In this document: one piece after another, positions 13,217 through 34,360 of the stretch
How positions within the stretch are numbered: position 1 is the stretch's first letter
Layout of the letters: each line of letters begins with the position of its first letter
Assembly: GCA_017531385.1 (NCBI GenBank)
Contig: JAFXLD010000031.1
Coordinates: 1-36,221, forward strand
DNA: 36,221 bases
Source: Clostridia bacterium
Lineage (GTDB): Bacteria; Bacillota; Clostridia; Oscillospirales; Acutalibacteraceae
Reading direction: 5' to 3'
The notes under the pieces: generated by a model
Databases searched by the model: none
What the model was told of the DNA's origin: nothing
The model's input: only the letters and a program-made list of their open reading frames with translations
Made by a program: the position numbers and the translations under genes

Positions 13217-13750
13217 ATGAAAAAACAGAATACTGTTGTAAATCTTACCCTTTCATCGATGTTTCTCGCACTCGCTTATGTTATGCCGTTTCTGACAGGT
13301 CAGGTGCCTCATATCGGTTCAATGCTTTGTCCTATGCACATTCCTGTTATTCTGTGCGGCTTCGTATGCGGTGCTCCGTGGGGATTGATCGTCGGTTTTG
13401 CATCACCTTTGATTCGTTCAGTAACATTGGGAATGCCGACGTTATATCCTGTTGCGGTTGCAATGGCTTTTGAACTTGCAACGTATGGTTTTATAAACGG
13501 AATTCTTTACCGTGTTTTTCCGAAAAAGAACGGTTACATATATTGTTCGCTTATCATCTCTATGGTAATCGGCCGTCTTGTCTGGGGAGCAGTTCAATTT
13601 GTTTGTGCAGGATTTGATGTATCAGGATTCGGATTTGCGGCATTCTGGGCAGGTGCTGTAACTAATGCACTTCCGGGAATCGTTTTGCAGATTGTATTGA
13701 TTCCGGTTGTTATAATACTTTTGGAAAAAGCAAAATTAATAAGAGGTTAA
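13217..13750 (+). CDS. ECF transporter S component (substrate-binding)
   Basis: 177 aa from the ATG after AAAGGAATTTTCC. About six hydrophobic helices. The segment GQVPHIGSMLCPMHIPVIL followed by CGxxxGxxxG and SPLIRS is typical of the integral S component of vitamin-type energy-coupling factor transporters. The A and T subunits are not in this window and are probably shared. The substrate cannot be assigned; the leader and the neighbouring metal-enzyme cluster suggest a cofactor or precursor. The methyltransferase starts 1 base after its stop, so the two genes form an operon. Confidence 0.85.
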   Translation: MKKQNTVVNLTLSSMFLALAYVMPFLTGQVPHIGSMLCPMHIPVILCGFVCGAPWGLIVGFASPLIRSVTLGMPTLYPVAVAMAFELATYGFINGILYRVFPKKNGYIYCSLIISMVIGRLVWGAVQFVCAGFDVSGFGFAAFWAGAVTNALPGIVLQIVLIPVVIILLEKAKLIRG

Positions 13751-13751
13751 A

Positions 13752-14345
13752 ATGAATAAAAAGGATGTCAGGGAATTCTTTGATTCGCTTGCGGATTCAT
13801 GGGATGATAATATGATTAAAAGTCAATGGAAAATTGATAAAATATTTGATATTTCAGAAGTGACACCCGGCAAGAAAATTCTTGATGTTGCTTGTGGTAC
13901 GGGAGTTTTAATTCCGGATTACATTAATAGGAGAGTTTCAAAATGCGTTGCTGTTGATATATCTGAAAAAATGACAGAAATTGCGAAAAGTAAATTCGGT
14001 AAATATAAGAATATTGAATTTTTGTGTGCAGATGCAGAATATGAGAAATTTGAGGATGAATTTGACTGTGTGATTATATATAATGCGTTTCCGCATTTTA
14101 TAAATCCTGTTAAGCTTTTTGAAAATTTGTCAGAGTGTCTTAAACAAGGCGGAAGAATTACGATTGCCCACGGCATGAGCAGAGAAGCGCTTATCAGACA
14201 TCATTCAGGCAGTGCTGAAAAGGTTTCAACCATTCTTCCCGAAGCGGACAGTCTGGCGGAGATGATGAGCACGTATTTTGAAATTGATACAAGAATATCT
14301 GACGACGAGCTCTATATAGTTTCCGGTGAAAAAATTGATATGTAA
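13752..14345 (+). CDS. Class I SAM-dependent methyltransferase
   Basis: 197 aa, UbiE/COQ5-like. Residues 43-52 (ILDVACGTGV) are SAM-binding motif I, followed by VAVDISEKM (motif II), a CADAE acidic loop, and FDCVIIYNAFPHF (motif IV region). The acceptor is unknown. It is translationally coupled to the ECF S component and lies just upstream of the dehydratase-like modules, so it may modify a cofactor or imported compound used there. That link is inferred from position only. Confidence 0.85.
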   Translation: MNKKDVREFFDSLADSWDDNMIKSQWKIDKIFDISEVTPGKKILDVACGTGVLIPDYINRRVSKCVAVDISEKMTEIAKSKFGKYKNIEFLCADAEYEKFEDEFDCVIIYNAFPHFINPVKLFENLSECLKQGGRITIAHGMSREALIRHHSGSAEKVSTILPEADSLAEMMSTYFEIDTRISDDELYIVSGEKIDM

Positions 14346-14526: not shown

Positions 14527-14555
14527 TTGAGATTTTTTTATATGTATGATATTAT
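14527..14555 (+). promoter_or_regulatory. Promoter of module 1
   Basis: TTGAGA (14527-14532), 17 bp and TATTAT (14550-14555), giving a leader of about 90 bases. Confidence 0.55.
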
Positions 14556-14579
14556 GTATAAATAAACGATTTATGCCGC

Positions 14580-14646
14580 AACATCTGACAGATGTTTTTG
14601 TGTGCTTCAATATATTTGATGTTAATTAATACACCTGAAGGTGATG
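14580..14646 (+). promoter_or_regulatory. Small hairpins in the module 1 leader
   Basis: AACATCT/AGATGTT (14580-14596) with a GAC loop is followed by TTT and resembles a short attenuator. Further down, CACC/GGTG around TGAA could partly hide the AAGGTG ribosome binding site of the first gene. Confidence 0.3.
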
Positions 14647-14649
14647 TTT

Positions 14650-15408
14650 ATGTGTACGGAAATCTTTGCCTTTGCAGGAAAAGGCGGAGTAGGAAAAACG
14701 TCTCTTTCCGCTGCGTTTATACGGATATTATCAGAGTATTTCCCTGATAAAAGAATTCTTGCTGTTGATGCCGACCCTGCTGTAGGTCTTTCTATGGCTT
14801 TACAGATTCAACCTGTACTTACACTCGATGATATTCGTATCCGGATTGCAGAAAACATTGAAAGTGGTCAGACCGCACAAGCCATTGAACTTCTGAGTGA
14901 AGCTGAATTCCATTTGCTGGATGCCATTGTTGAAAAAGATAACATTTCATTTCTGGCAATCGGTAGACCTGAAGCTGCCGGATGCTACTGCAAAGTCAAT
15001 GCTTATCTTAAGCAAGTAATCGAAATGCTTTGTGAAAACTATGATTTTGTGGTTATTGACGGTGAGGCAGGAATAGAGCAAATCAATCGCCGTGTGATGG
15101 AAAATATCACTTATCTGGTACTTGTGAGCGATGCAAGTAAAAAAGGCATCAGTGTTATTTCTGTTATTGAAGATGTTGCAAACAAGTTGACATCCTGTAG
15201 AAAAAGCGGTGTTATCTTCAATAGGGTAAGAGGAACATTTAATGCTGATTGTGTTTCAGGTATTCCTCCTGTGCTTTCTGTAATCGGAGAAGATGAAAGC
15301 CAGACAGAAAATGATATGCAGGGAGAAAGTGTCTTCAGCTTACCTGTTGAGTCGCCGTTGTATCAAGGTGCAAAAACGGCACTGTTTTCACTATTGGAGG
15401 AAAACTGA
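14650..15408 (+). CDS. CooC/AcsF-type nickel-insertion ATPase, module 1
   Basis: 252 aa. The ATG at 14650 was chosen because AGGTGATGTTT before it matches GGGTGATGAT before the paralogue at 19591. KGGVGKT (11-17) is the deviant Walker A of MinD/CooC ATPases, VDADPA follows, and G-C112-Y-C114 is the CxC motif that in CooC binds a metal ion at the dimer interface; VVIDGEAGIEQINRR is the family's Walker B region. CooC and AcsF load nickel into CO dehydrogenase and acetyl-CoA synthase; no CODH is present here, so the client is probably a protein of this cluster. It leads an operon of seven genes. Confidence 0.88.
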   Translation: MCTEIFAFAGKGGVGKTSLSAAFIRILSEYFPDKRILAVDADPAVGLSMALQIQPVLTLDDIRIRIAENIESGQTAQAIELLSEAEFHLLDAIVEKDNISFLAIGRPEAAGCYCKVNAYLKQVIEMLCENYDFVVIDGEAGIEQINRRVMENITYLVLVSDASKKGISVISVIEDVANKLTSCRKSGVIFNRVRGTFNADCVSGIPPVLSVIGEDESQTENDMQGESVFSLPVESPLYQGAKTALFSLLEEN

Positions 15409-15410
15409 CC

Positions 15411-16130
15411 ATGAAAATATTTGCCGAAGTAACAGAAAAAATGATGTCACTGTTACCTGAAACCGCAGATAAATCAGTGTTATTCAATGATGAATTTTGT
15501 GCCGTAAACGGTGAGAAAAACTCAATTCTGTTCAGAAGCGATACCGCTTACGAATTGGGCGGAAGCGGAAAACCTGCTGTCTGCAGTATAGTGTTTACAG
15601 ATTTACCGTCTATGCGTGATGAGGTGATTTTATACGGACCGGATCTGAGTGAGATAACAGAAGATACTCCTTTTGCTCATATTACTTTCGTTCAATTGAA
15701 GCAGAAAAACGAAGAAGAACTGACTTATGAACAGCTGAAAAATATAGGTTTCACTGCTTTTCAGATTTATCCTGAAGGTTATCATATCCGTATTTCACCT
15801 GTGGCGTCAAAAGAACAGGTGCGTGTGGCAAAGACAGCTTTATATTCAGATTCGCCTTTATCCTTTTTGAATGTCGGTTGCAGTTTGATCCGTGCCTTTA
15901 AGGAAAATGACGATGTTGAATTTGTCAGAACGGTTTTTATTACAAAGAAAGAATTTGATTACAGAGCGCTTTCAGACCTTGCACAAAAAGCAAAAAAAAC
16001 AACCGATGCAGTACACAGCACTTTGCAGTTGGATGAGCTTGACTGTGCATCGTGTAAAATGAAACCTATTTGTGATGAGGTTGAAGGTCTGCGGGAATTA
16101 CATTTAAAAAAAGAAAAGGAGAAAATCTGA
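15411..16130 (+). CDS. Acetyl-CoA synthase A2-domain-like protein, module 1
   Basis: 239 aa, soluble. Two stretches recall the A2 domain of acetyl-CoA synthase (AcsB/CdhC): DTAYELGGSGKP followed by VILYGPDLSEI, which matches the YxEFGG...VIGPDIDEI region, and LNVGCSLIRAF followed by VEFVRTVFIT, which matches the GEIL-x-KY...VDKVQVTIYT region. It ends with C212-x2-C215-x5-C221 DEVEG, placed like the first three cysteines of the ACS A-cluster (C-x2-C-x8-C), but the Ni-binding CGC motif and the rest of ACS are absent. It lies 2 bases after the CooC gene. Its paralogue is at 24063-24758. Function unknown; a metal-cluster scaffold or partner is an inference. Confidence 0.6.
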   Translation: MKIFAEVTEKMMSLLPETADKSVLFNDEFCAVNGEKNSILFRSDTAYELGGSGKPAVCSIVFTDLPSMRDEVILYGPDLSEITEDTPFAHITFVQLKQKNEEELTYEQLKNIGFTAFQIYPEGYHIRISPVASKEQVRVAKTALYSDSPLSFLNVGCSLIRAFKENDDVEFVRTVFITKKEFDYRALSDLAQKAKKTTDAVHSTLQLDELDCASCKMKPICDEVEGLRELHLKKEKEKI

Positions 16131-16131
16131 T

Positions 16132-16356
16132 ATGGAGCATAATCACAGCAGTCATACTCATGATCATACATCTGCCGAAGAAATAACAGCATTGCTTAAA
16201 TATATGGCACACCATAATGCTCACCATGCTGATGAGCTTCTGGAAACTGTTTCTTCACTTCCCGATAATGCTGCGGTTCTCATAAAAGAAGCAGTGGAAC
16301 TTTTAAATAAATCGACTGAAAAAATCAATCAGGCGATAAAAGAATCGGAGGGGTAA
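16132..16356 (+). CDS. Histidine-rich small protein, probable nickel binder
   Basis: 74 aa. The N-terminus has His at most second positions (HNHSSHTHDH) and a second cluster HHNAHH about residues 25-30; the rest is a charged helix. His clusters of this kind bind nickel or zinc, as in the tails of nickel chaperones such as CooJ or HypB. It sits 1 base after the ACS-like gene and 2 bases before cooT, so nickel storage or delivery for this operon is the simplest reading. Homology to CooJ is not shown. Confidence 0.75.
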   Translation: MEHNHSSHTHDHTSAEEITALLKYMAHHNAHHADELLETVSSLPDNAAVLIKEAVELLNKSTEKINQAIKESEG

Positions 16357-16358
16357 AA

Positions 16359-16544
16359 ATGTGTCTTTCATCAATTTATAAAAAAAGCGATGATGAAAAT
16401 ATTTTTCTCTTAAAAAATGTTGCACGTGTTATATGTAAAGACGGGGAGCTTACTGTTTATGACCTTATGGGTGCGTGTACAAAACTGAAGGGTGAAATCT
16501 GCGATATTGACCTTATGGAGAATATTATCCTGATTAAGGAATGA
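16359..16544 (+). CDS. CooT-family nickel-binding protein
   Basis: 61 aa, beginning Met-Cys-Leu-Ser. The length, N-terminal MC and the small beta-barrel-like pattern (VARVICKDGELTVYDLMG, then LKGEICDIDLMENIILI) fit CooT. In Rhodospirillum CooT, Cys2 is essential for Ni(II) binding, and it is present here. CooT helps mature CO dehydrogenase, so finding it in a dehydratase-like operon without CODH is unusual. It overlaps nothing and is followed by a 68-base gap before the next subunit. Confidence 0.85.
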   Translation: MCLSSIYKKSDDENIFLLKNVARVICKDGELTVYDLMGACTKLKGEICDIDLMENIILIKE

Positions 16545-16612
16545 GCGGATACAGAATAATAAAAACAATTTGATTGAATTTTTTTGCTGGAAAGAAAGGC
16601 GGATTTTATAAA

Positions 16613-17815
16613 ATGAGAGACCTCAGATACCGTGTATACTTTGAAAATCTTCTCGAAGAAGTAAAAAATGAATTGGTAGATAAGGCTCTGGAAGACGGAA
16701 AACTGGCACTCGGATATTCATGCTATTACATACCTGAAGTGCTTATGAATCTTGACGGTTGTTTTTCCGTGCGTCTGAGAGCACCGGGAGTTGCCGATAC
16801 GGCTATTGCGACATATTATATGTCGGAAAAAACATGTATGTACTCACGAAGCATTCTTGAACTGGCAATCGAAGGAGGATACAATTTCTTTTCTGCATTG
16901 CTGAGCACGGAAACCTGCGGAATGATGCATCGTTCCCATGAACATTTTGAGATGCTTGACCTTGTTAAGGAGCAGAACGAAAAGTTCTTTGTATCTCATG
17001 TTGATGCTCCTTTTGTAACAAAAGATTATGCTGTAAAGCATTATGAAAAACAGCTGAAAAAACACGTTCTTGACCGTCTGAACGAAGTTTACGGAGTTGA
17101 TGTTTCAGATGAAGCTTTACGGAAGGCAATTGAAAAACACAATGAGCTTTGCCGTATAGTTACTGAAATCGGCAATTATCGTAAACTCTCAAATCCGCCT
17201 CTTACCGGATATGAGTTCCATCTTATCGAGCTTGTCAGTGAATGTTGCCCTCACGATCTGATTATGCCGTATCTTAAGGAAACACTTGAAGAACTGAAAA
17301 CAAGAGTTGCCGATAAAGATCCGTGGTACCGTGTCAGGGTTGTTCTTGCAGGCGGTGAGAATGATGATCCTGATTTTACCAAGCTTATTGAGGACTCAGG
17401 TGCTTTTGTTGTTGCAGACAGATATTGCTTCGGCTCGCTTCCCGGCAGAGAAGAAATTGAAATCCGTGACGGTGAAACTGCACTTAATGCTATTGCAAGA
17501 CATTATATTGATACTAATGAGTGCCCGAGATTTATGAATCCTGAAAAGGTTCACGGCAGAAAGCAGTATCTCAAAAAGCTTGCGGAGGATTATAATGCAG
17601 ACGGACTTATTGTTCAGCAAATGAAATTCTGTGAATATTGGGAATATGAGCGTATGTATTGTCAGCAAGTAATGGAGAGTGACTACGGCTTGCCTTGTAT
17701 GGGTATTGAAAAGGAATATATCAACACTTCGACAGGACAGTTACGAACCCGCTTCCAGGCTTTTGTTGAAGCACTTGAACTTAAGAAAACGGAAAGGGGA
17801 GAGCAGCATGGCTGA
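16613..17815 (+). CDS. 2-hydroxyacyl-CoA dehydratase/BcrC-like subunit A1
   Basis: 400 aa from the ATG at 16613 (AAAGGCGG upstream), the same start as the 401-aa paralogue. Three cysteines fall where this superfamily binds its Fe-S cluster: C37 in GYSCYYIPEV, C75 in KTCMYSRS and C102 in TETCGMMHR. The region VRLRAP and the C-terminal VADRYCFGSLPGR (C272) and KFCEYWEYER (C340) are also kept in the paralogue. HgdAB, FldBC, BcrBC and double-cubane proteins use such subunits for ATP-driven low-potential electron transfer. The substrate is unknown. Its end overlaps the B1 gene by 8 bases. Confidence 0.88.
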   Translation: MRDLRYRVYFENLLEEVKNELVDKALEDGKLALGYSCYYIPEVLMNLDGCFSVRLRAPGVADTAIATYYMSEKTCMYSRSILELAIEGGYNFFSALLSTETCGMMHRSHEHFEMLDLVKEQNEKFFVSHVDAPFVTKDYAVKHYEKQLKKHVLDRLNEVYGVDVSDEALRKAIEKHNELCRIVTEIGNYRKLSNPPLTGYEFHLIELVSECCPHDLIMPYLKETLEELKTRVADKDPWYRVRVVLAGGENDDPDFTKLIEDSGAFVVADRYCFGSLPGREEIEIRDGETALNAIARHYIDTNECPRFMNPEKVHGRKQYLKKLAEDYNADGLIVQQMKFCEYWEYERMYCQQVMESDYGLPCMGIEKEYINTSTGQLRTRFQAFVEALELKKTERGEQHG

Positions 17816-19346
17816 AAAGAAAAACTTCGGCAGCAGAAAACGTTTTTATAACGGTTATGAGCTTGCCCGTTACAGAAAATGGAAGGGATTCAAGGATTCC
17901 TGGGTAGATTTCAAAGAATGGCTTAAAGAAAAAAAGATAAGCGGAGAACTGCTTAAAGCTGACCCTGTCCGTGCCTTCAAGGCATTGACATATTATCACT
18001 GGATGGCGCCTTATCTCGGCAGCGGAAGTATGGTTGACCGTACCATTGATGATGCTCACGGTGAAGCTTTACTTATTGCTCATAAATATATGCAGTTTTT
18101 GTTAAAAAGCAATGTGGAGGCATTGATAAAAATTTTAAAATCGGATGAGCGCTTCGGTGAAAATGAATATTCCAAGAAAACTGTAATTTTTGAGCAGGAT
18201 GCTTCGCCGATTCTTATAGGTGGTTTCCCGAATCTTCAGAATGCCGTGGAAGAACCCTATTTCCACATTCTTGCTACTGCTAATGATCAGCACGCAGGTC
18301 ATTATTTTACAGATATCATTGATTCTTACGGTCTCCCGTCAGACTCTTGCAGAAACTCTTCTGCAATCTGCGGTGTTGCAATAGATGACCAGCTTCCTTA
18401 TTACGGAGCTTGTCTTATCACAAGTAATGCACCCTGTGATTCTTCTGTTATGAACTCATCTATTGTTGAGCGTCGTCTTAAGGTGCCTTCAATTCAGGGC
18501 TGTACACCTATGCGTTGGAAGGACGAGGATACAAGGGAATATGCAGTCGCTCACGTTAAAGAGGTTATTAAATTCATTGAAGATTGCACCGGTGAAACAT
18601 TTGACTGGGATGCCTTTTTTGAGACTGTCCGTCAGTACAACGAGGAAACCCGCATCCAGCACGAATTATGGGAGCTTGCAAAATCTCCTTATTATCCCGT
18701 GCCGAGCGTACCTAATCTGTTGTACCGTTCTTTCCAGCTTTCTTTCTCAAGCGGTCTTAATAAGGAATGTGCAAAAATCGGCAGAGAGATGCTTGAAATC
18801 TGCGAAAAGTGCGTCAGGGAAAAAATCAATGTCCGTCCCAAAACACGGTACAGAACTCTTGTCTGCGGTGCTCCGTCATCATATTATATGCATTTTTCCA
18901 CATGGATGTATGAGTGCTGGGGTGTAAACACCGTTGCGGTGCTCAACAATATGTCTCACCACGAGTTTATTTCCGAGGATGACAAAGAAGAGGCTCTCTG
19001 GGGTGTTGCACAGCTCTGGGAGCAGGCAATCATGCGTCGTCATCTTGTAGGCGGATACGAAAACTTACTGGAAATGTTTGAAGAATATGAACGCTTTAAC
19101 TGTGACATGATAGTGTTTTATGACGATATTACCTGTAAGGGCAGTAAATCTATGACCGGAATGATTCAGGATATTGCAAACGAAAGAAACATTCCTTTGG
19201 TGTGGATTTCACATGATCTGATCGATCCGCGTGCTATTCCGCGTAATGAAATGAGAAAACAGTTCAATGACTTTATGTTTTCTGTTATGAATGAAAAACC
19301 GTTGGATGAATCATTGCTTGATTTTGATGATTCCAAGGGCTGGTAA
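17808..19346 (+). CDS. 2-hydroxyacyl-CoA dehydratase/BcrB-like subunit B1
   Basis: 512 aa; the ATG lies 8 bases inside the A1 gene after GGGGAGAGC. It is longer than HgdA, HgdB or BcrB (about 380-480 aa), mostly at the N-terminus, where a basic and aromatic 100-residue stretch has no Fe-S motif. C181 in PSDSC, C210 in NAPCDSSVMNSS and C443 in DITCKG are all conserved in B2 and are probable cluster ligands, as in superfamily members. C202, C353 and C370 are conserved too. It should form a heterodimer with A1. Identity of the substrate is unknown. Confidence 0.85.
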   Translation: MAEKKNFGSRKRFYNGYELARYRKWKGFKDSWVDFKEWLKEKKISGELLKADPVRAFKALTYYHWMAPYLGSGSMVDRTIDDAHGEALLIAHKYMQFLLKSNVEALIKILKSDERFGENEYSKKTVIFEQDASPILIGGFPNLQNAVEEPYFHILATANDQHAGHYFTDIIDSYGLPSDSCRNSSAICGVAIDDQLPYYGACLITSNAPCDSSVMNSSIVERRLKVPSIQGCTPMRWKDEDTREYAVAHVKEVIKFIEDCTGETFDWDAFFETVRQYNEETRIQHELWELAKSPYYPVPSVPNLLYRSFQLSFSSGLNKECAKIGREMLEICEKCVREKINVRPKTRYRTLVCGAPSSYYMHFSTWMYECWGVNTVAVLNNMSHHEFISEDDKEEALWGVAQLWEQAIMRRHLVGGYENLLEMFEEYERFNCDMIVFYDDITCKGSKSMTGMIQDIANERNIPLVWISHDLIDPRAIPRNEMRKQFNDFMFSVMNEKPLDESLLDFDDSKGW

Positions 19347-19358
19347 GGAGGAATAAGC

Positions 19359-19535
19359 ATGGGCATATTAATAATTATATTAAAAATCATTGCATGTCTT
19401 ATTGCGTTGGCAGCTTTTGTTTTTGCGCTTATTCAGGCAGTATACTGGCTTAATATTGATAATAAGATAATGTTCCTGTTATATAAAATCTTCAACAGAA
19501 TTACAGACCGTGTACCCCGTGACCGCAGATTCTGA
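19359..19535 (+). CDS. Single-helix membrane peptide, module 1
   Basis: 58 aa; AAGGAGGAATAAGC precedes the ATG 12 bases after the B1 stop. One strong transmembrane helix (about 3-27) is followed by QAVYWLNIDNKIMFLLYKI and a basic tail ending RVPRDRRF. The post-helix segment resembles YWFNLDMKLVRVVYDLL in the 51-aa peptide at 23908-24063. The conserved position next to a dehydratase-like pair in both modules suggests a membrane anchor or partner of the enzyme. It is short enough to be missed by usual gene callers. Confidence 0.75.
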   Translation: MGILIIILKIIACLIALAAFVFALIQAVYWLNIDNKIMFLLYKIFNRITDRVPRDRRF

Positions 19536-19546
19536 GTTTTTTCGGG

Positions 19547-19574
19547 TTGACACGTAATAATTGATAAATATAAT
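19547..19574 (+). promoter_or_regulatory. Strong promoter of module 2
   Basis: Consensus TTGACA (19547-19552), a 16-bp spacer and TATAAT (19569-19574). The expected start of transcription is about 10 bases before the ATG, so the leader is very short. Confidence 0.75.
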
Positions 19575-19590
19575 CCGATTGGGTGATGAT

Positions 19591-20355
19591 ATGGAAAACA
19601 GTGCTGTAATAATAGCTCTTTCAGGAAAAGGCGGAGTCGGAAAGACATCAGTTTCAGCGGCTATTGTAAAACTTCTTGTTGAGGCATATCCTGACAAGAA
19701 AATTCTTGCAATTGATGCTGACCCTGCAGTCGGTCTTTCAACTGCACTGGGCATTGAAGTTAAATCAACAATTGATGATATAAGAAAAGAAATTGTATTG
19801 AATATGCAGGACGGTAATACAAAAACTGCAATCGAGCTTCTCGGTGATGCAAGATACAGGATTTTCGATGCTCTTGTTGAAACAGACGGTTTTGCATTCA
19901 TTGCAGTCGGCAGACCCGAAAGTGCAGGCTGTTACTGTAAAATAAATTCATATCTGAAAGAAGTTATCAGCATACTTTCAAATGATTTTGATTATGTGGT
20001 TATTGACGGTGAAGCAGGTATTGAGCAGATAAACCGCCGTGTAATGGAGAAGGTTACTCATCTTCTTCTTATCACTGATGCGAGTAAAAAAGGAACTCAG
20101 GTCATTTCAACGATAAAAAGCGTTGCAGATGAGCTTGTGATGTATAAAAAAATAGGTGCAATTGTCAACAGAATTCCCGATGAAAGTGTAATCCCACACA
20201 TCAATACAAACTGCATTCCCGTTCTCTCTTATATTGAAAATGATAAAAACCTTGCAATTTTTGATATTGAGGGTAAAAACATAACGAAACTTCCTGACGA
20301 TTCAAATGTTGTCAGAGGCGTAAAAAAGGCACTTACCGAAATGGAGATTTTGTAA
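19591..20355 (+). CDS. CooC/AcsF-type nickel-insertion ATPase, module 2
   Basis: 254 aa. The ATG at 19591 follows GGGTGATGAT; in-frame codons upstream lie over the promoter. It has GKGGVGKT (12-19), IDADPAVGLS, the metal-binding G-C114-Y-C116 motif, and VVIDGEAGIEQINRR. It is clearly a paralogue of the ATPase at 14650-15408, with near-identical motifs. It heads the second operon and overlaps A2 by 1 base (TAATG). It probably loads a metal into a protein of module 2, but the client is unknown. Confidence 0.88.
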   Translation: MENSAVIIALSGKGGVGKTSVSAAIVKLLVEAYPDKKILAIDADPAVGLSTALGIEVKSTIDDIRKEIVLNMQDGNTKTAIELLGDARYRIFDALVETDGFAFIAVGRPESAGCYCKINSYLKEVISILSNDFDYVVIDGEAGIEQINRRVMEKVTHLLLITDASKKGTQVISTIKSVADELVMYKKIGAIVNRIPDESVIPHINTNCIPVLSYIENDKNLAIFDIEGKNITKLPDDSNVVRGVKKALTEMEIL

Positions 20356-21560
20356 TGAGAGATCTGAAACATCTTTATGAATTTGAAAAGCTTCTGCTCG
20401 ATGCTAACAATGAGCTTGTGCAGAAAGCGAAGGCAGACGGCGGTATTGCTCTGGGGTATACCTGTTATCACATTCCTGAAGTTCTCCTCAACTGCGGAAA
20501 CTGTTTTTCCGTCAGACTCAGAGCTCCGAGAACAGGTTCAATGGATATTGCCACATACTATATGAGTAACTTCCTTTGCGGTTATTCAAAGGCAATTCTT
20601 GAAAGAGCCATTGAGGGCGGTTATAATTTCCTGAATGCGTTGCTGTCATCTGAAACCTGTTCCGAAATGAACAGAACAGCAGAGCATTTTGAGCTTCTTG
20701 AGCTGGTACCTGAAGATAAGTTTTTTGTTACTTTCCTTGATATGCCTTTTAAAATTGAAGACCACACAGTAAGGCATTACGTTACACAGACAAGAGTAAA
20801 AATTCTTGATAAAATAACTTCTGTTTACGGTGTTGATACTTCCGATGACGCATTGCTGAAAGCTGTTGAGGAGCATAATGAAGTCTGCCGTATCATGACA
20901 GAAATCGGCAACTACCGTAAGGAAGACAATCCGAGAATTACAGGATATGAATATCATACTCTGAGTCTTGTTTCATATTGCTGTCCGAAGGCTCTTATTC
21001 TGCCTATGCTCCGTGAAACTGCCGAGGAGCTTAAAACAAGAGAACCGGATGCAAAGAAGAATTACAGAGCAAAGATTGTTGTTGTGGGCTCTGAAATGGA
21101 TGATCCCGAGTTCACATCTCTCATTGAAGACAGCGGTGCACTTGTTGTTGCCGACAGATACTGTTTCGGTGCACTTCCCGGCAGACAGGAAATAATTATA
21201 AACAAAGATGAAGATGTACTCACTCAGATATGTCTTCATTATCTTAAAACAAGTCAGTGTCCCCGCTATATGAGCCACGAAAAGGTTCAGGAGAGAAGGG
21301 ACTATGTAAAACAGCTTGTTGATGAATATCACGCAGACGGTGTTATGTACGAACAGCTTAAATTCTGTGAATACTGGGGATATGAAAGAGCACTTGCTTC
21401 ATACATAATGACAAATGATTACGGTGTACCCACCGCAGCCGTTGACAGACAGTATACTGCATCGGCATCAGGACAGCTCCGTACACGTGTACAGGCATTC
21501 GTTGAAAGCCTTGAAATCAAAAAGATTCAGAAAGAAAAGGGGGGGAAGAAGAATGGATAA
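20355..21560 (+). CDS. 2-hydroxyacyl-CoA dehydratase/BcrC-like subunit A2
   Basis: 401 aa. Shares with A1 the probable Fe-S ligands C37 (GYTCYHIPEV), C75 (FLCGYSKA) and C102 (SETCSEMNR) at identical positions, plus VADRYCFGALPGR and KFCEYWGYER. Differences such as the extra C47 and changes around residues 103-107 (GMMHR against SEMNR) suggest that the two modules act on different substrates or partners. Overlaps B2 by 8 bases, exactly as in module 1. Confidence 0.88.
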   Translation: MRDLKHLYEFEKLLLDANNELVQKAKADGGIALGYTCYHIPEVLLNCGNCFSVRLRAPRTGSMDIATYYMSNFLCGYSKAILERAIEGGYNFLNALLSSETCSEMNRTAEHFELLELVPEDKFFVTFLDMPFKIEDHTVRHYVTQTRVKILDKITSVYGVDTSDDALLKAVEEHNEVCRIMTEIGNYRKEDNPRITGYEYHTLSLVSYCCPKALILPMLRETAEELKTREPDAKKNYRAKIVVVGSEMDDPEFTSLIEDSGALVVADRYCFGALPGRQEIIINKDEDVLTQICLHYLKTSQCPRYMSHEKVQERRDYVKQLVDEYHADGVMYEQLKFCEYWGYERALASYIMTNDYGVPTAAVDRQYTASASGQLRTRVQAFVESLEIKKIQKEKGGKKNG

Positions 21561-23082
21561 TTACGGTAAACTTTATAAAGAACATACTGCCATACTTAAG
21601 CACAGGGAATGGCGTGGTTTTAAAGACACAATGTATGATTACTACCGTTGGCTTGTCACCTGGAAAGACATGATAAAAATGGTTCTCAAAGCTCCCGTTT
21701 CTACTGTCAAGGGTATCTGGAGATACCGCTGGATGGCTTCTTATCTTTCCGCACCTTCTTTTATTGACCGTCATGTTGCAGGTCTGAGAGGACCTCAGCT
21801 GCGAATGGCTCACCTTCATTACAACATGATTGTCAAGCATACAACTGACCTTATCAATCTTTCTCTCAAGGCAGATGAAAAGATCAATCCCTGCAATAAG
21901 ATTTCAAAGAAAATTGTTCTTATGGACGAAATTGTTCCTAATGAAGTGTTTACAGGATTCCCGAATCTTATTCCCGTACCTCTTCAGACACTGCCCATAT
22001 TCCTTTCTTCAATGGTTGACCAGCAGATTACACCTCCTTATCTTGAAGTTACGGAAAGCTTCGGTGTGCCTGCCGATGTATGTCCTCTTCCCAGTGCAGA
22101 AGCAGGTGTTGCAATTGATGACGATTATCCGAAAATCGGTTGTTGTATGATTGGTACAAATATGCCCTGTGACGGCTCAATCATGAACTCATCATTCCTT
22201 GACAGAAGAATCAATCTTCCCACACACTTTTTCGGTGTACCTCTTCGTTATGACGGTGATGATGTTCAGGAATATGCTGTTGAGGAAATAAAATCACTTA
22301 TTGCTTTTATTGAAAAACAGACAGGTGAAAAGTTCGACTGGGATGAATATTTCAGAAGAATGAAAGACTACAATAAGCAGCTTGAATATGAAAGACAGAA
22401 GTGGGATATAAACAAAACACCCTATCCGCAGATGACAGGTGCCTGCTTCTGGCTTTACAGAATTTTCTATTTCAATCTTTCAGGTGGCACAAATGAAAGA
22501 TTCCTTAAAGTTGACGAAAAGGTCAATAAAATAATGATGAAAGCATACGAGAAGAAAACTCCCGTATCAAAGGAAATGCGTCACAGAGCCGTTGTGTGGA
22601 GCTGTCCCGCAAACTACTACACATCATTTGCAAACTGGCTTGAAAACTGCTGGGGTATCAATGTCGTTATGGATATGGAAACGATGATTTCATATCTTGA
22701 AATTGACACAGAGGATAAAGAGCAGTCGCTCAGAGACCTTGCGAAGACATACCAGCGTTCCATTATGCGTAAACACACAAAGGGCGGATACAAAAACGTC
22801 GTTGACGAGCTGTGGAGAATCGTTGAAGAATACAATGCAGACACGGTTATTATGTATGACCAGATTTCCTGTAAGGGAATGGACGGTCTGTCTGGTATTT
22901 TTGACGATCAGGCAAGAGAGCGTAATGTCAATTTTATCTGGGTGCAGCAGGACCTTATGGACCCGAGAACAATTTCACGACGTGATATGCGTGAACAGGT
23001 AAATAAATATATGCAGACTGTTCTTCAGGAAGAACCTCTTGATGCTTCACTTCTTGATTTTGAAGACGATTTAGCTTGGTAA
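21553..23082 (+). CDS. 2-hydroxyacyl-CoA dehydratase/BcrB-like subunit B2
   Basis: 509 aa; GGGGGGAAGAAG precedes the ATG inside the A2 gene. Conserved with B1 are C177 (PADVC), C206 (NMPCDGSIMNSS) and C440 (QISCKG), plus C351, C366 and the LLDF(D/E)D C-terminal motif ending in W. The second cysteine of the SAxC region in B1 (C188) is replaced by Ala here. The N-terminal 100 residues again differ from known dehydratases. It is expected to pair with A2 and to be activated by the next gene product. Confidence 0.85.
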   Translation: MDNYGKLYKEHTAILKHREWRGFKDTMYDYYRWLVTWKDMIKMVLKAPVSTVKGIWRYRWMASYLSAPSFIDRHVAGLRGPQLRMAHLHYNMIVKHTTDLINLSLKADEKINPCNKISKKIVLMDEIVPNEVFTGFPNLIPVPLQTLPIFLSSMVDQQITPPYLEVTESFGVPADVCPLPSAEAGVAIDDDYPKIGCCMIGTNMPCDGSIMNSSFLDRRINLPTHFFGVPLRYDGDDVQEYAVEEIKSLIAFIEKQTGEKFDWDEYFRRMKDYNKQLEYERQKWDINKTPYPQMTGACFWLYRIFYFNLSGGTNERFLKVDEKVNKIMMKAYEKKTPVSKEMRHRAVVWSCPANYYTSFANWLENCWGINVVMDMETMISYLEIDTEDKEQSLRDLAKTYQRSIMRKHTKGGYKNVVDELWRIVEEYNADTVIMYDQISCKGMDGLSGIFDDQARERNVNFIWVQQDLMDPRTISRRDMREQVNKYMQTVLQEEPLDASLLDFEDDLAW

Positions 23083-23105
23083 ATAAAAAAAGGAGATAAT
23101 GAATT

Positions 23106-23906
23106 ATGAAATATTTTGGCGGTTGTGATGTTGGCTCAACATATACAAAATGTGTTATTCTTGATGAAAACGGAAACATTGTTGCAAATGTTACCAACAG
23201 AAGTAAAATAAATCCAGTTGCAAGTGCTCAGATTGCACTTAACGATGCTATAGCTCAGGTTGATAGTCTGAATTCAGCCGAGGATCTTACATATCTTATC
23301 GGTACCGGTTACGGCAGAAATAAGGTTCCTTTTGCTGATGAAAATATTTCTGAAATCAGCTGTCACGCTATGGGTGTTCATGTTACAAATCCCGAAGTAA
23401 AGGCGATTATCGATATCGGCGGTCAGGATGTAAAGGGTATTTCAATCGACACTGACGGCACGGTAAAAAACTTTGCAATGAACGATAAATGTGCTGCAGG
23501 TACAGGCAGATTCTATGAAGCTATGGCAAATGCTTTTGAAATGACTTTACCCGAATTCTCAAAGCTGTCATTGAATGCTAAAAATACAATTCCCATCACT
23601 GCACAGTGTACTGTTTTTGCAGAAAGTGAGGTTATTTCACTTGTGGGTGAAGGTAAACCTATGGATGAAATTGCGGCAGGTATTCAGCTTGCAGTTGCAA
23701 AAAGATGTTTTGTTATGGCTAAAAAAGCAGGTGCTACAAACAGTATCACTCTGACAGGCGGTTGCGCAAAAAATGATGGTCTCAAAAAAGCAATTGAAAA
23801 AGTGCTTAAAATCAAGGTTGTTGAACTCAAGACTGACCCCCAGCTTATGGGTGCTCTCGGTGCGGCTGAATATGCCCGTCAGAAGGGTCTTGCAAAGGTG
23901 AATTGA
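23106..23906 (+). CDS. HgdC/CompA-type activator ATPase (archerase)
   Basis: 266 aa, BadF/BadG/HgdC family; AAAGGAGATAAT precedes the ATG. GGCDVGSTYTK (residues 5-15) is the phosphate-binding loop of the ASKHA fold, IDIGGQDVKG another. C129 in NDKCAAGTGRF and C168 in AQCTVFAESE match C127 and C166 of the Acidaminococcus activator, which bind one [4Fe-4S] cluster between two monomers. Such proteins drive electrons into the dehydratase by ATP hydrolysis. It is the only activator seen, so it must serve both modules or module 1 uses one outside the window. Confidence 0.93.
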   Translation: MKYFGGCDVGSTYTKCVILDENGNIVANVTNRSKINPVASAQIALNDAIAQVDSLNSAEDLTYLIGTGYGRNKVPFADENISEISCHAMGVHVTNPEVKAIIDIGGQDVKGISIDTDGTVKNFAMNDKCAAGTGRFYEAMANAFEMTLPEFSKLSLNAKNTIPITAQCTVFAESEVISLVGEGKPMDEIAAGIQLAVAKRCFVMAKKAGATNSITLTGGCAKNDGLKKAIEKVLKIKVVELKTDPQLMGALGAAEYARQKGLAKVN

Positions 23907-23907
23907 T

Positions 23908-24063
23908 ATGGAAGTTTTTCTTATAATACTTGCAGTTATTGTCGGTCTTTTTCTTCTGACATTTGCAATTTACTGGTTCAATCTCGATATGAAGCTTGTA
24001 CGTGTTGTTTATGACCTGCTTCAGAAACATTACGATGCTATGAAAAGGGAAAAGAAACTTTGA
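23908..24063 (+). CDS. Single-helix membrane peptide, module 2
   Basis: 51 aa from the ATG 1 base after the activator stop. One transmembrane helix (about 2-22), then IYWFNLDMKLVRVVYDLLQ and a basic tail KREKKL. It is similar in layout and post-helix sequence to the 58-aa peptide of module 1. Its stop codon overlaps the next start (TGATG), so it is translationally coupled. Confidence 0.75.
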   Translation: MEVFLIILAVIVGLFLLTFAIYWFNLDMKLVRVVYDLLQKHYDAMKREKKL

Positions 24064-24758
24064 TGAATTTTTTTGATTCTCTGATAAATGACAGCCTCTC
24101 TGTCATTTCAAAGTATCGTCAGATTGAATATTCTCCTGACAAATCAGAAGCCCGTAGTGACACGGGATACAGTCAGGTTATTCTTCAGCGTGACACGGCT
24201 TATGAACTCAGCGGTGCCGGTATAAGTCTTGTGACTTCGTCTGATATTCAGGACAGGATAATCGTTGCGGGTGATGAGCTTTCAGAAATCAGCGGTAACC
24301 GTAAATTTGCAAGAATATCAATTATTCAGACCGATGATGTTGAAGATGAACAGAAAGCATATAACCTGATAAGAAAAATTGAATATGTCAAGTATCATGT
24401 TTTTCCCGAAGGTTATATGATAAGAACTGCATCTTCTTCTCATAAAGAATCTGTGCGTGTTGCAAAGTCAGCATTGAAAAACGGAATCAGTTTTGAGAGT
24501 GTCGGTAAGCTTATGATTAATAAATACAAGGAGATTGAGGCTGTCAGGGGAGTAAAAATAATTTTCGTGACTGTACCCGATGCTGATTATGATGCTTTTT
24601 TCCGCATTGCAGAAAAAAGCAATGACATAACAAAAACTCTCAATCATGTTATGAATACGGTCAGTTTTGATTGTGATACCTGTAATCTAAAGGCTGTATG
24701 TGACGAGGTTGAGGGAATGCGTGAGCTTCATTTCAGAAATAAAGAGATGAACATGTGA
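24063..24758 (+). CDS. Acetyl-CoA synthase A2-domain-like protein, module 2
   Basis: 231 aa. The ATG at 24063 overlaps the previous stop; a TTG one codon earlier is less likely. It is a paralogue of the protein at 15411-16130: RDTAYELSGAG, IIVAGDELSEI, VFPEGYMIR, VRVAKSALKN, SVGKLMINKYKE, VKIIFVT, and C204-x2-C207-x5-C213 DEVEG. The comparison with the ACS A2 domain and its A-cluster cysteines applies here too. It is the last gene of module 2, whereas its paralogue is second in module 1, so the gene order has been rearranged. Confidence 0.6.
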   Translation: MNFFDSLINDSLSVISKYRQIEYSPDKSEARSDTGYSQVILQRDTAYELSGAGISLVTSSDIQDRIIVAGDELSEISGNRKFARISIIQTDDVEDEQKAYNLIRKIEYVKYHVFPEGYMIRTASSSHKESVRVAKSALKNGISFESVGKLMINKYKEIEAVRGVKIIFVTVPDADYDAFFRIAEKSNDITKTLNHVMNTVSFDCDTCNLKAVCDEVEGMRELHFRNKEMNM

Positions 24759-30539: not shown

Positions 30540-33500
30540 TCATTTCGGAGCGTAAGGGGAGTCGAGACCTTGTTTACCCCAGTATGCCATCATGCTGTCA
30601 CCTGAGCCGAGAACAATATTGCCGTCTTTTATGCTTATTTCATACACAGCATAACCAATATTATCAAAATCGGAAAATGCCTTGCCTTTGATGACAACAT
30701 TCCCATTATTGTCAGCACCGAACTGTATTTCAGAAACAGGACTGTTGAAAATATTGAAATATTCGATATAACCGTTCTCATAGACAGAAAATGTCACCGT
30801 AAACAGTCCCGAGGTTGGTCCGTAGCCGAGAATACAGTCTTCCTTTATTCCGTCACCGTCAATATCGGTTGTTGTTTTATCTATATATCCTTTTTTATAT
30901 CCGAGATATTCAAAAACAGCACCGTCAGGCACACAGGGCACAGGCTTCCCATCTGTTGAGTATTTATATTCGGGCACGGGAGTTGATTCGTCAGCAGAAA
31001 AAATCAGATCAGAATCCTTTTTCCTGAATATATATTTTTGCTTTTTGTCGTTTGAAAGAATAAAAATTCTGTCAATATAGTCCTGATATGTACCCTCAAT
31101 AATGTTACTGCTAAGCCTTGACAGACTGAATATGGCTTGTTTTGTATCAGGATTCAGTGAAAGATAAGATGCGTCATGCTCATTTGAGTATAAATACTCA
31201 ATATGTCCTGAAACAGGTGCAATCGAGAAATTTTCCTTTTTAATAATATACGCTCCCATATCTCCCTGCGTAAGAACAAGTCCGTCAGAATCCTGCATAA
31301 ATACTTTAAACACAGCCGACTGAGTGCGTTCAACACAGATTAACTTTATAATGCCGGAATAAAGCTTTTCTTTTTCGTTATATACCGTAAAATTTACTTC
31401 GGCAGTATAATCCTCATGTTCTAAAACATCATAATCGGGTTCCCAGTATACTTTTTCACCCTTTTCAAATCTCATAGATTTACGTCGGGGTTGCTTTTCC
31501 GTATCAAGGTTTACCATTTTACCGTTTTTACACGATGTGACTATGTGTGTGTAATCCAGATTGAAATCAACAGTGAAAAATCCGTGCCATGTTGCACTCA
31601 TATACGGACTGTAAGTCCACTCAACAGATGTTTCAGAAATGTTTTCGGGAGAATGCAGAATAGCCGCAGCATCCTTGTAATCGCCGTATGATGCGTGATA
31701 GTATCTTATTTCATCTTCAGACTTTACAGTCGCATAGGCAAACAGAGAGCCTTTTTTTCGTGCATAAACGGTTACTCTGTAATTTTCATCAATCACAAAC
31801 TCAACTGAGCCGGGAGATGAAAGCGGGTTTATGGGCGCTGAACTTCTTTTCCAGTTGACATGATTAAGAAAATATGCTGCTTCATTACAATATGCTTCAC
31901 CCACAAGAATTGCCGATTCGCTTTCATCGCTTTTGGGATAATGAATAGCAGTTATACTGTATTTATCCGACATTTCTTTCACAACTTTGCCCGCAGTCAT
32001 ATAATCAAGCTTATCAAGATGCTCATATTTATCGGTATAAATACTGCCGTAGAAGTCAGTCTCAGGCTCGGGCAGTTCACAGTCATAAGTATTGTTTGAA
32101 ATGAATCTGCCCGTTGCGGCATCCAGTTCAATTTTCTGTGTGATTTCACCCGTCGCATAAATTTCCCTTGTATAGATAATCAGATTTTTTTCTTTGTCAA
32201 AATCTGTACGGTAAACGAATCTCACACCGTTTTCAAGTGTTTCGTAATTGCCGATGTCTGCATCAAAACAACTGAGTGTGTTATTCTCAAGAATTTTGTT
32301 TGAAATCTCGACAGATACACCCACATCCGTCAGCATGACATGAGGTACTTCGCTGTAATGACAGACTTCAGCCTTTCTGCCGATTTTTTCAAGATAGTCT
32401 TTCGCATAGGCAACACACTGTGCCCACATATCAGCATTGTCTTTTTCAGTAGGATCAAGTACGCGTGACTGATACTTTTTGGGAAACATTTCTCTTATTG
32501 AATCTCCGTAACCTTCACCGGGCATTACATATTTATGATCAGTCAGTATATAGCCGTCATCATTTTTTACAAAAGTGAAAACTGCAGGTGTGCAATGTCC
32601 CGTCTGCTCCATGAAATAGCCGTTCTTGAAGCCGAAACCGGCAAATTCCTCCTGAAGATAAACGGTGACATTGTCCCCCTCTTCTTCATAACCGTATATT
32701 ATATGTCCCTCTGCAACACATTCCGTATTGTAAAGCTCCCTTGACGAATTGATTTCAAAAATTGCTTGAGAAACAGCTCTATCAAGCTCGGGATTGCTGT
32801 CTTTAAGTTCAGGTTTCGGATTTGTCAGGAAACACACACCCACAACAATACACGAAATGACCGCAATAATGATAATCCACAATGCAGGTTTTTTGTAGCT
32901 GAGGACGGACTTTATTCTGTCCTTTACGCCTGTTTCGCCGAATGCAAGAGGACAGGCTGAAATTGTGCGTCTTGACACACTGCAGTTGATAAGTGCTTCG
33001 GAATAGGATTTTTTTATGTCCGTGCCCATTTCTTTTATGACTTTTTCGTCACAGGCAAGCTCAATATCTCGGCAAAGAAGAATATATGCAAGCCACATCA
33101 CGGGATTGAACCAATAGACAGTCAGAAGTATAAATCCCAACGGCTTCCACCAGTGGTCACGGCGTCTGAGATGTGCTTTTTCGTGTGCGATGACATAGTC
33201 CATATCACTCTCAGACATGCCCGACGGCAGAAAAATCCGAGGTCTGAAAAGCCCGAGAATAAATGGCGTATCAATTCTGTCGCAAAGCCATATATTGTCT
33301 TTCATCACAACACCTTCACGGACTTTGCGATTCAGACGAATATAGCTTATTCCCGAATAAATCAGCATTGCAAAAATGCCGCTAAGCCATACAATCACAA
33401 CCACGAAAAGGCCAACCTGCAAAGGATTTACACTGTTTGTGACATCAGGTGCAAAGGTCTCTGATATAATGGGATTTATCGTGCTGTTAAGTGCAGGTAT

Positions 33501-33746: not shown

Positions 33747-33748
33747 AT

Positions 33749-34111
33749 TTATTCCTCCTCAAAATCTGCAACCATTCTGCGAAGTTCGGCAATTTCCTCC
33801 CGTGAGAGTGATTTCCTCGCTGTGAATGCCGCTAAAAATGCAGGCAGAGAACCGCCGAATGTTTCATCGACGAATTTTTCGCTCTGCACCGAGTAAAACT
33901 CGTTTTTTGAAATAATCGAAGTCACCGTACCTTTATTGTTCTGAAAAATTCCTTTGTCACAGAGTCTTTTCAGAACCGTATAAGTGGTTGTTTTCTTCCA
34001 TTTAAGTTCGTTTTCACTCAATTTAACAAGCTCGGTTGTGGCAACAGGCTCATTCTGCCATATAATATCAGCAAAACGGGACTCGATAACACCCATCTGT
34101 AATTCACTCAT
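33749..34111 (-). CDS. BlaI/MecI/CopY-family repressor
   Basis: 120 aa. The ATG at 34111 follows GGAGGTGTTTTTT; a much longer in-frame ORF start lies over the operators and the tRNA. The winged helix has QNEPVATTELVKLSENELKWKKTTTYTVLKRLCDKGIFQ, the conserved BlaI region, and the C-terminal helix dimerises. In the family, the partner protease cleaves the repressor on signal. It is the first gene of the operon with the M56 gene. Confidence 0.92.
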   Translation of the reverse strand: MSELQMGVIESRFADIIWQNEPVATTELVKLSENELKWKKTTTYTVLKRLCDKGIFQNNKGTVTSIISKNEFYSVQSEKFVDETFGGSLPAFLAAFTARKSLSREEIAELRRMVADFEEE

Positions 34112-34132
34112 AAAAAACACCTCCAAAATTAT

Positions 34133-34174
34133 TCTACACGATGTAGACTGCATCTTTATTCTACATAATGTAGA
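34133..34174 (-). promoter_or_regulatory. Twin operators of the BlaI-type repressor
   Basis: TCTACACGATGTAGA (34133-34147) and TCTACATAATGTAGA (34160-34174) are two near-identical dyads with centres 27 bp apart, just upstream of the repressor start. TACA-n-TGTA is the typical BlaI/MecI half-site pattern. Confidence 0.85.
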
Positions 34175-34234
34175 CCCGAAAGTCAAGCAGTTTAAAAAAA
34201 TATCAAAAAATATTAAAAAAATTACAAAAAAGGC

Positions 34235-34263: not shown

Positions 34264-34281
34264 ATTGAACGTTCCGAACAT

Positions 34282-34357: not shown

Positions 34358-34360
34358 TAT

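Follow-up and report, generated by a model that had tools for sequence, protein, structure and literature searches.

The window, that is the whole stretch of 36,221 nucleotides of contig JAFXLD010000031.1 analysed here, belongs to a Clostridia bacterium of the Acutalibacteraceae and carries two consecutive gene modules in which CooC-type ATPases and small proteins resembling acetyl-CoA synthase (ACS) lie beside paired subunits of the benzoyl-CoA reductase/2-hydroxyacyl-CoA dehydratase (BCR/HAD) superfamily. All genes named in an earlier note on this DNA were found in frame on the + strand, with the start of the first gene moved from 14527 to about 14653 (or a GTG at 14641). The genes are as follows.

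13217..13750, +, ECF transporter S component, accessory (PF12822, 1.2e-14)
13752..14345, +, SAM methyltransferase, accessory (Methyltransf_25, 4.9e-19)
14653..15408, +, CooC-type ATPase 1 with GKGGVGKT and GCYC (CbiA, 2.5e-12)
15411..16130, +, ACS-like protein 1, stand-alone ACS A2 domain with C-terminal CX2CX5C (family alignment; the family profile matches ACS)
16132..16356, +, His-rich small protein with HNxHH core and N-terminal His run (CooJ-like by composition only)
16359..16544, +, CooT with Cys2 present (PF10133, 1e-13, over cut-off)
16616..17815, +, A subunit 1, BzdN/DCCP-like, with six double-cubane Cys (HGD-D, 5.8e-90)
17808..19346, +, B subunit 1, BzdO/HadB-like, with three cluster Cys (HGD-D, 1e-38)
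19359..19535, +, one-helix membrane peptide 1, YWLNxDxK (hydrophobic segment)
19591..20355, +, CooC-type ATPase 2 with GKGGVGKT and GCYC (best solved relative CooC1, 3kje, 1.4e-15)
20355..21560, +, A subunit 2 (HGD-D, 2.2e-90; 57% identity to A1)
21553..23082, +, B subunit 2 with HadB/BzdO fold (HGD-D, 2.7e-46)
23106..23906, +, activase of HadI/MbdQ type, ATP-driven electron donor (TIGR00241, 216.9 bits; MbdQ, 3.5e-62)
23908..24063, +, one-helix membrane peptide 2, YWFNLDxK (hydrophobic segment)
24063..24758, +, ACS-like protein 2, stand-alone ACS A2 domain with CX2CX5C (modelled A2 fold)

Between 14653 and 24758 the intergenic gaps measure only -8 to 71 bases, with 55 bases separating modules 1 and 2, so that a single transcript is possible. 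At the gathering threshold, Rfam recognised only tRNA in the window and thus no nickel riboswitch, and no CoA ligase was recognised within it.

With 134 to 304 bits for the HGD-D model of Pfam (PF06050, cut-off 28.4), A1, A2, B1, and B2 belong to the BCR/HAD superfamily, and they are the only four HGD-D matches in the window genome, which is 83% complete. The earlier note had paired A and B as superfamily members, which both are, but they are not equivalent, A being of the double-cubane type and B a three-Cys subunit of the catalytic type. In A, cysteines 37, 75, 102, 270, 302, and 338 are invariant, and among the matches listed all six are kept in 106 of 107 A subunits, the lone exception beginning at base 1 of its contig. 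They equal in number, and are near-identical in position to, the double-cubane ligands of BzdN, given as Cys36/73/100/263/293/327 in the accessible text of PMC11971306. A is predicted from these residues to hold a double-cubane [8Fe-9S] cluster, and as it keeps the full ligand set, net reduction rather than dehydration is to be expected. Cysteines 177, 206, and 440 of B are kept in 111 of 111 B subunits among the matches listed (this count and that for A include contigs sampled twice) and in alignments to family members are the counterparts of the BzdO ligands Cys95/128/380 (PMC11971306, accessible text). B has the catalytic-subunit fold of HadB/BzdO, beyond which B2 carries additional helices in its approximately 75 N-terminal residues. 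The activase matches BcrAD_BadFG of Pfam (1.2e-57) and exceeds the cut-off of TIGR00241 (216.9 versus 125.4 bits); its best solved relative is MbdQ. Activase, double-cubane cysteines of A, and cluster cysteines of B support the ATP-driven reductase of the earlier note. In the NCBIfam scan, which among the subunits covered A1 and B1, both stay far under every enzyme cut-off. The best model for A1 is a double-cubane reductase, below its family cut-off, and scores are 143.7 (A1) and 42.2 (B1) bits versus 350 for the DCCP equivalog NF040772, 94 versus 453.8 bits for A1 with the bzdN equivalog, and 31 versus 448.6 bits for B1 with the bzdO equivalog.

ACS-like protein 1 has no Pfam match, and ACS-like protein 2 reaches 22 bits with CdhC, under the cut-off of 24. 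The profile of the family, however, matches ACS at 3.6e-9, and hhalign of the family against ACS gives a probability of 97.9%, with C204 and C207 falling on A-cluster cysteines. ACS-like protein 2 is modelled with the fold of the ACS A2 domain, and good structural matches to this predicted fold are chains of ACS or CdhC only; confidence in the model is lowest for residues 191-230, which include the cysteines (block pLDDT 59-80). We know of the A2 domain otherwise only from the nickel enzyme ACS. Among the matches listed, three cysteines are invariant in 80 of 80 aligned ACS-like proteins, and CX2CX5C occurs in all 100 ACS-like genes collected (97 by pattern, the remaining three seen directly). 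Six cysteines are invariant in 14 full ACS (507, 510, 519, 529, 596, and 598 in L118). The first two of these are matched in the alignment by the ACS-like protein, which has one further motif cysteine and none invariant after the motif; because the last three A-cluster cysteines lack a counterpart, it cannot form a complete A-cluster.

Lack of a conserved gene association had been set beforehand as refuting the earlier view, but the association is strongly conserved and exceeds chance: among the matches listed, 97 distinct ACS-like genes, many of them on cut contigs, are surrounded by this gene set. Three contigs were sampled twice (L016/L037, L017/L049, and L018/L060), hence the 100 collected genes represent 97 distinct ones, and the 74 with at least 5.3 kb of upstream sequence represent 72. 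Within 9 kb of these 74 genes, among the matches listed, there are CooC in 74 cases, A in 72, B in 73, and the activase in 73, and in most loci listed the ACS-like gene adjoins the activase or the peptide gene. The SAM methyltransferase lies within 9 kb in 16 of the 74 cases among the matches listed, a minority of loci, and an ECF transporter S component is found directly 5' of CooC in two further loci (L036 and L048). At one locus, L059, CooC and the ACS-like gene occur, but neither A nor B nor an activase lies within 10 kb, and L028 showed no core gene on examination. The 80 loci studied are the best 80 of 387, so distant members are under-sampled. Plasmid spread was rejected, the ACS-like protein of L082 having no match in 72,556 plasmid records.

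At the level of genomes, B is present in 13 of 300 family genomes, all within the 14 that have an ACS-like gene, and in none of the 286 others (Fisher 7e-22, from raw counts that ignore shared ancestry). The 13 genomes hold 25 B genes versus 14 ACS-like genes; in G263 the ACS-like gene is present as a 75-codon fragment only. The examined stretches of G047, G166, G241, and G244 contain 4, 4, 3, and 4 A-B pairs and 1, 1, 1, and 0 CooC genes, with one ACS-like gene each, which leads us to regard CooC and the ACS-like protein as maturation factors that several A-B enzymes share; CooC copies were counted in these stretches, and the genome search might miss a second ACS-like gene if it had diverged. 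For seven A-B-peptide units, the examined stretch contains neither CooC nor an activase nor an ACS-like gene. The window genome itself has two ACS-like and two B genes, with which a subunit role is compatible as well. Across 398 genomes of the phylum, HGD-D occurs in 206 and a short stand-alone ACS-like gene in two, indicating that ordinary HGD-D family members manage without the ACS-like protein.

Both CooC proteins match CbiA/AAA_31/ArsA-type ATPase models of Pfam. Among the matches listed, a deviant Walker A and a CxC metal motif are present in 81 of 81 CooC proteins of at least 200 residues, and the CYC of CooC 2 falls on the CYC of CooC1 (3kje). On the basis of these motifs, CooC is predicted to bind nickel and to mature a nickel enzyme. 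CooT scores 51.8 bits with PF10133 (cut-off 27) and possesses Cys2, which we take to be a nickel ligand; Cys2 is found in 17 of 17 CooT proteins among the matches listed, one with a GTG start included. CooT matched no solved structure up to E 1, and the His-rich protein, relatives of which mostly adjoin CooT, has no family match of weight in Pfam or NCBIfam. Among the matches listed, CooT is near 15 and the His-rich gene near 13 of the 74 ACS-like genes, counts that short ORFs can escape; a laxer threshold places CooT in 16 of the best 80 of 387 loci, and neither gene was detected in a related second branch. The full nickel kit is therefore not seen everywhere.

Carbon monoxide dehydrogenase (CODH) would be the expected client of such genes, yet PF03063 (CODH/HCP) has no match in the 83%-complete window genome. 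Of the genomes with the system, 1 of 14 in one set and 1 of 29 in another have CODH above cut-off; it is missing from 40 of 42 distinct genomes, a total that allows for G175, the genome of L037, being in both sets; a match of 29 bits in G166 (cut-off 478) was scored absent. A CODH partner is thus ruled out for most genomes, and service of CooC and CooT to a distant CODH, which the earlier note had named as refuting its view, fails in nearly all genomes tested. NiFe hydrogenase was rejected as a general client, with matches in only 11 of 42 genomes (one counted twice), none of them the window genome, each confined to roughly the first 70 positions of the profile, in frames some 360 codons long. 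The client search comprised CODH/HCP and NiFe hydrogenase. The earlier interpretation as a nickel-dependent ATP-driven reductase is partly supported: the conserved association and the absence of CODH from nearly all genomes tested favour it and the ATP-driven reductase has support, whereas nickel dependence is something that we infer from the metal-site motifs conserved in CooC, CooT, and the ACS-like protein.

A hydrophobic segment is present in 79 of 79 small peptides of the system among the matches listed. The peptide, together with the occurrence of Butyrivibrio among the hosts, prompted consideration of fatty-acid biohydrogenation or plant-acid reduction by rumen bacteria as speculative functions. 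Some loci also have a flavoprotein similar to OYE, BaiCD, and bilirubin reductase, under all curated cut-offs: among the matches listed, it is found no more than 1 kb from a core gene in 22 of 99 loci, in 13 of these within 50 bases; the window genome has an unlinked copy, 61% identical. As it is found in 60 of 300 family genomes and in 8 of the 14 with an ACS-like gene (Fisher 0.0018, again raw counts ignoring shared ancestry), it is a frequent companion and not core, and was ruled out as an obligatory partner. Riboflavin degradation by gut Lachnospiraceae was also set aside, a term search of the main text of PMC12934955, as far as accessible, giving no 'dehydratase', 'CooC', or 'nickel'. The second branch has an operon with two acyl-CoA dehydrogenase genes as well as two activases (L150, L182-L185), and these dehydrogenase genes weaken the earlier proposal that the substrate is perhaps not a CoA ester.

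With class I benzoyl-CoA reductases (BzdNOPQ, MbdONPQ) the system shares the six [8Fe-9S] cysteines of BzdN in A, the cysteines and fold of BzdO/MbdO in B, and the MbdQ-like activase. In contrast to them, the window has one activase gene in place of two different ATPases, B is longer by N-terminal helices, and CooC, the A2-domain protein, the membrane peptide, and sometimes CooT and the His-rich protein are added. DCCP and its reductase likewise combine a six-Cys subunit with an ATP-dependent activase, but DCCP is a homodimer (PMC11971306, accessible text), whereas the present A and B are different proteins, the latter with just three invariant cluster cysteines. Compared with 2-hydroxyisocaproyl-CoA dehydratase (HadBC/HadI), A has the full double-cubane ligands and nickel genes are added. 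CODH/ACS maturation (CooC, AcsF, CooT, CooJ) offers the CxC of CooC, Cys2 of CooT, and an A2 domain with the first A-cluster cysteines, but here most genomes lack CODH, only one ACS domain is present, and the A-cluster ligands are incomplete; the apparent client is the A-B family. The operon of the putative isoprene reductase IsrA also joins an anaerobic reductase to nickel chaperones (HypA/HypB) with no matching nickel enzyme, although reductase (a FAD/Fe-S protein) and chaperones are different and its nickel is putative too, as far as the accessible text of PMC10134865 goes. The MCR activation complex, too, uses ATP to send low-potential electrons by way of complex Fe-S clusters and works in a nickel context, but with other proteins and with archaeal F430 as target (PMC12176620, accessible text). 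No such system is described in the literature searched, mainly outside subscription journals and partly in excerpt, and papers naming both CooC and benzoyl-CoA reductase treat them, in their accessible parts, as separate matters.

Given the observed gene content and order, domain identities, ligand residues, co-occurrence, and absence of CODH from most genomes tested, we consider it rather probable that the two modules encode a BCR/HAD-superfamily reductase that is activated by ATP and served by its own nickel-handling arm, in which CooC and the ACS-like protein are shared maturation factors. The activase would spend ATP to drive low-potential electrons into the double-cubane cluster of A, which would hand them to the open-site cluster in B, where a small-molecule substrate would be reduced, and the peptide may anchor A-B at the membrane. 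CooC, joined in some loci by CooT and the His-rich protein, would load nickel on the ACS-like protein, a predicted A2 domain ending in the first part of the A-cluster site, from which the nickel, or a cluster bearing it, would pass to the A-B enzymes. The latter would be diversifying, a subset of loci being paired with the ene-reductase-type flavoprotein. More specifically, and only tentatively, B may carry nickel at the open site of its three-Cys cluster, built by CooC through the free-standing A2-domain carrier.

It is doubtful that the ACS-like protein is instead a structural or electron-carrying subunit of the reductase holding nickel in CX2CX5C; equal ACS-like and B numbers in the window genome and the proximity to activase or peptide would suit this, but the single ACS-like gene beside three or four A-B pairs in four genomes does not. 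CooC and the A2-domain protein might also assemble the double-cubane or open-site cluster of A-B with nickel uninvolved, since these two are near-constant partners while CooT and the His-rich gene are not, and nine of nine cluster cysteines are those of known Fe-S enzymes. We regard this as unlikely, because CooC retains its CxC site and is nearest to CooC1, CooT with Cys2 was found 17 times among the matches listed, the A2 fold points to ACS/CdhC only, and HGD-D proteins are far more widespread than the ACS-like gene.

That A-B and the activase reductively activate a nickel centre, as the MCR activation complex does with F430, has in that complex a precedent of an ATP-driven activator with complex Fe-S clusters, and the operon carries nickel-handling genes. 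It holds no known nickel enzyme, however, the window genome has neither a CODH/HCP nor a NiFe hydrogenase match, and the several diverged A-B pairs found per genome are easier to reconcile with multiple substrates than with a single client, which makes this improbable. Superfamily membership, acyl-CoA dehydrogenases in the second branch, and CODH in two genomes with the system could speak for an ordinary 2-hydroxyacyl-CoA dehydratase or aryl-CoA reductase with CooC and CooT serving an unlinked CODH; with CODH missing from most genomes and the enzyme cut-offs missed by so much, this is very hard to credit.

Nickel chemistry in biology is, to our knowledge, confined to a short list of enzymes, and as far as we know the ACS A-cluster and its loading by CooC/AcsF are regarded as exclusive to CO and acetyl-CoA metabolism. 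The BCR/HAD superfamily is known for very difficult reductions. That nickel-loading genes and a single ACS piece seem coupled to an ATP-powered reductase suggests an unrecognised kind of nickel enzyme. If our preferred reading is true, the superfamily would gain a nickel branch, through an operon in which CooC and a single ACS domain accompany an ATP-powered double-cubane reductase and whose host genomes mostly lack CODH. The nickel cluster in B, if true, would make it the superfamily's first nickel enzyme, one from a family of which some genomes have several paralogous reductases, and the A2 carrier, if true, would be the first case of an ACS domain employed for anything but acetyl-CoA synthesis. 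The hosts are gut Clostridia, many labelled as from herbivores, and include Butyrivibrio XPD2006 and NC2007, apparently isolates, which opens the system to biochemical or genetic study; it may explain reductive steps in the gut that are still without assigned enzymes.

The gene set under study (14653-24758) consists of thirteen + strand genes with intergenic distances of -8 to 71 bases. A and B are the double-cubane-type and the three-Cys catalytic-type HGD-D subunits of a predicted BCR/HAD superfamily reductase, and the ACS-like protein is a stand-alone acetyl-CoA synthase A2 domain.

Module 1, + strand: CooC, ACS-like protein, His-rich protein, CooT, A, B, membrane peptide
Module 2, + strand: CooC, A, B, activase, membrane peptide, ACS-like protein
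13217-14345: ECF transporter S component and SAM methyltransferase (Pfam), directly upstream of the system
30540-35595: BlaR1/BlaI-like pair, tRNA-Pro, and serine-recombinase-like ORF (protein names by eye)
34282-34357: tRNA-Pro
34462-35595, minus strand: serine-recombinase-like ORF (by eye)

Identities between the modules are 54% for CooC, 57% for A, 36% for B, 36% for the ACS-like protein, and 33% for the peptide. The gene names of the earlier note agree with Pfam and NCBIfam (Pfam alone for A2, B2, and CooC2), except for the ACS-like proteins, which stay below model cut-offs and were recognized via a profile. The upstream ECF S component and methyltransferase perhaps serve substrate import and modification; an ECF S component also lies beside the system in loci L036 and L048, and 16 of 74 ACS-like genes have a methyltransferase nearby. 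The region 30540-35595 may represent a mobile-element boundary.

Among 300 genomes of the window's family, 14 possess the ACS-like gene and 13 of these same genomes possess B, which was not found in any of the 286 family genomes lacking the ACS-like gene. The fourteenth genome, G263 of the same genus, retains a 75-codon ACS-like remnant (C2:2150-2374) and no B, apparently a case of decay of the system. A genome_contigs scan yielded 387 loci, and the best 80 of these are annotated as Clostridia, Oscillospiraceae, Lachnospiraceae, and some further groups. Many originate from guts of deer, cattle, goat, sheep, and buffalo; the few of these 80 records without a metagenome-assembly label include Butyrivibrio sp. 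XPD2006 and NC2007. In strain XPD2006, a RACo-type protein, by Pfam a reductive activator of corrinoid proteins, is encoded at L082:19726-20714, some 9 kb 3' of the system. Pooling the best 80 with the family and second-branch loci gives 100 ACS-like genes (97 distinct). Within 9 kb of the 74 that have at least 5.3 kb upstream, CooC is encoded in 74 cases, A in 72, B in 73, and the activase in 73, followed by the peptide (63), the methyltransferase (16), CooT (15; 16 of 80 loci with laxer thresholds), and the His-rich protein (13). One of two usual gene arrangements fits 73 of 99 loci; 23 of the remaining 26 have less than 5.3 kb upstream, and the order differs in L097 and L109 as well as in L027 and L102, both among those 23. 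At L059:9231-10699, CooC and the ACS-like gene stand alone, A, B, and activase being absent within flanks of about 9-10 kb.

Of 398 genomes of the phylum, 206 encode HGD-D proteins, but only two have a short stand-alone ACS-like gene, both HGD-D-positive (setting aside a weak 416-codon frame in G477). The system is a specific branch and no general trait of the superfamily. A stand-alone ACS-like gene is also present in 6 of 97 genomes of another class. Where contigs suffice (L150 with L186, L182, and L185, from genomes G459, G762, and G753 for L150, L182, and L185), this second-branch operon encodes two acyl-CoA dehydrogenases, one or two further proteins (no Pfam match in L150), A, B, two activases, the ACS-like protein, and CooC, so that the core of CooC, ACS-like protein, A, B, and activase is present across two classes. 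L182 has an additional A-B-activase set, and the ACS-like protein of L150 exceeds the Pfam CdhC cut-off (54 versus 24 bits). At least for the second branch, a CoA-ester substrate is plausible.

In nearly all genomes searched, the nickel-handling genes have no CODH as client. A PF03063 search of the window genome (83% complete) gave no match, and the CODH model exceeds its cut-off in one of the 14 family genomes (one further genome reaches 29 bits) and in one of 29 genomes reached via named loci, whose completeness is not given. As one genome is common to both sets, 42 are distinct, and CODH above the cut-off is absent from 40. The best solved relative of CooC2 is CooC1 (1.4e-15), with the CYC motifs of both aligned, and GKGGxGKT and GCxC occur in all 81 CooC sequences of at least 200 residues. 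CooT scores above the Pfam cut-off, and Cys2 is conserved in all 17 CooTs found, including one with a GTG start. In the accessible portion of a CODH genome-context study, CooT occurs solely beside CODH clades E (16% of operons) and F (6.1%) (PMC13056359). The His-rich protein, which CooT adjoins in most cases, has a conserved HNxxH core and resembles CooJ in composition alone.

The 13 B-bearing family genomes contain 25 B genes versus 14 ACS-like genes. G047, G166, and G244 each have four B copies and G241 three, with a single ACS-like gene in each. In the sequence analysed around these genes, every B is paired with A; the stretches from G047, G166, and G241 contain one CooC each, and that from G244 contains none. 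Seven units consist of A-B-peptide alone, the peptide lying directly 3' of B in all seven. After reduction of 111 B sequences to 31 at 80% identity, the tree shows several well-supported paralogue groups common to different genera; B1 of the window forms a long branch without placement. This distribution suggests that several enzymes are served by the ACS-like protein and probably by CooC as well. At L198:7585-14460, the genes after an unlinked A-B-peptide unit encode a LysR-like protein (by eye) and, according to Pfam, an amine-oxidase-like FAD protein and a 2Fe-2S flavin reductase, a possible hint at a substrate.

Judging from its homology, the activase would transfer electrons to A in an ATP-driven manner, and the six Cys of A suggest storage in a double cubane; the three Cys and the fold of B point to low-potential reductions of the substrate there. 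Motifs and context suggest that the A2-domain protein receives nickel from CooC, and, as the weakest step, the A-B enzymes may be the final site of nickel. An ene-reductase-like flavoprotein, encoded near the system in 22 of 99 loci (at most 50 bases away in 13), could reduce a double bond either before or after the step of B. In the window genome, contig C106 (L148:7933-10008) encodes an OYE/BaiCD/bilirubin-reductase-like flavoprotein, 61% identical to the system-adjacent one of Butyrivibrio; an FAD oxidoreductase gene lies at a distance of about 6 kb.

The nearest published idea, from the part of the source available, is a putative isoprene reductase with HypA/HypB (PMC10134865). In the literature searched, as far as it was accessible, no paper links the BCR/HAD superfamily to CooC or to an ACS domain. 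The reductase core is of an already known kind. To our knowledge, there is no earlier example of the nickel and ACS-domain arm, and if nickel sits in B, this would be a categorically new reading.
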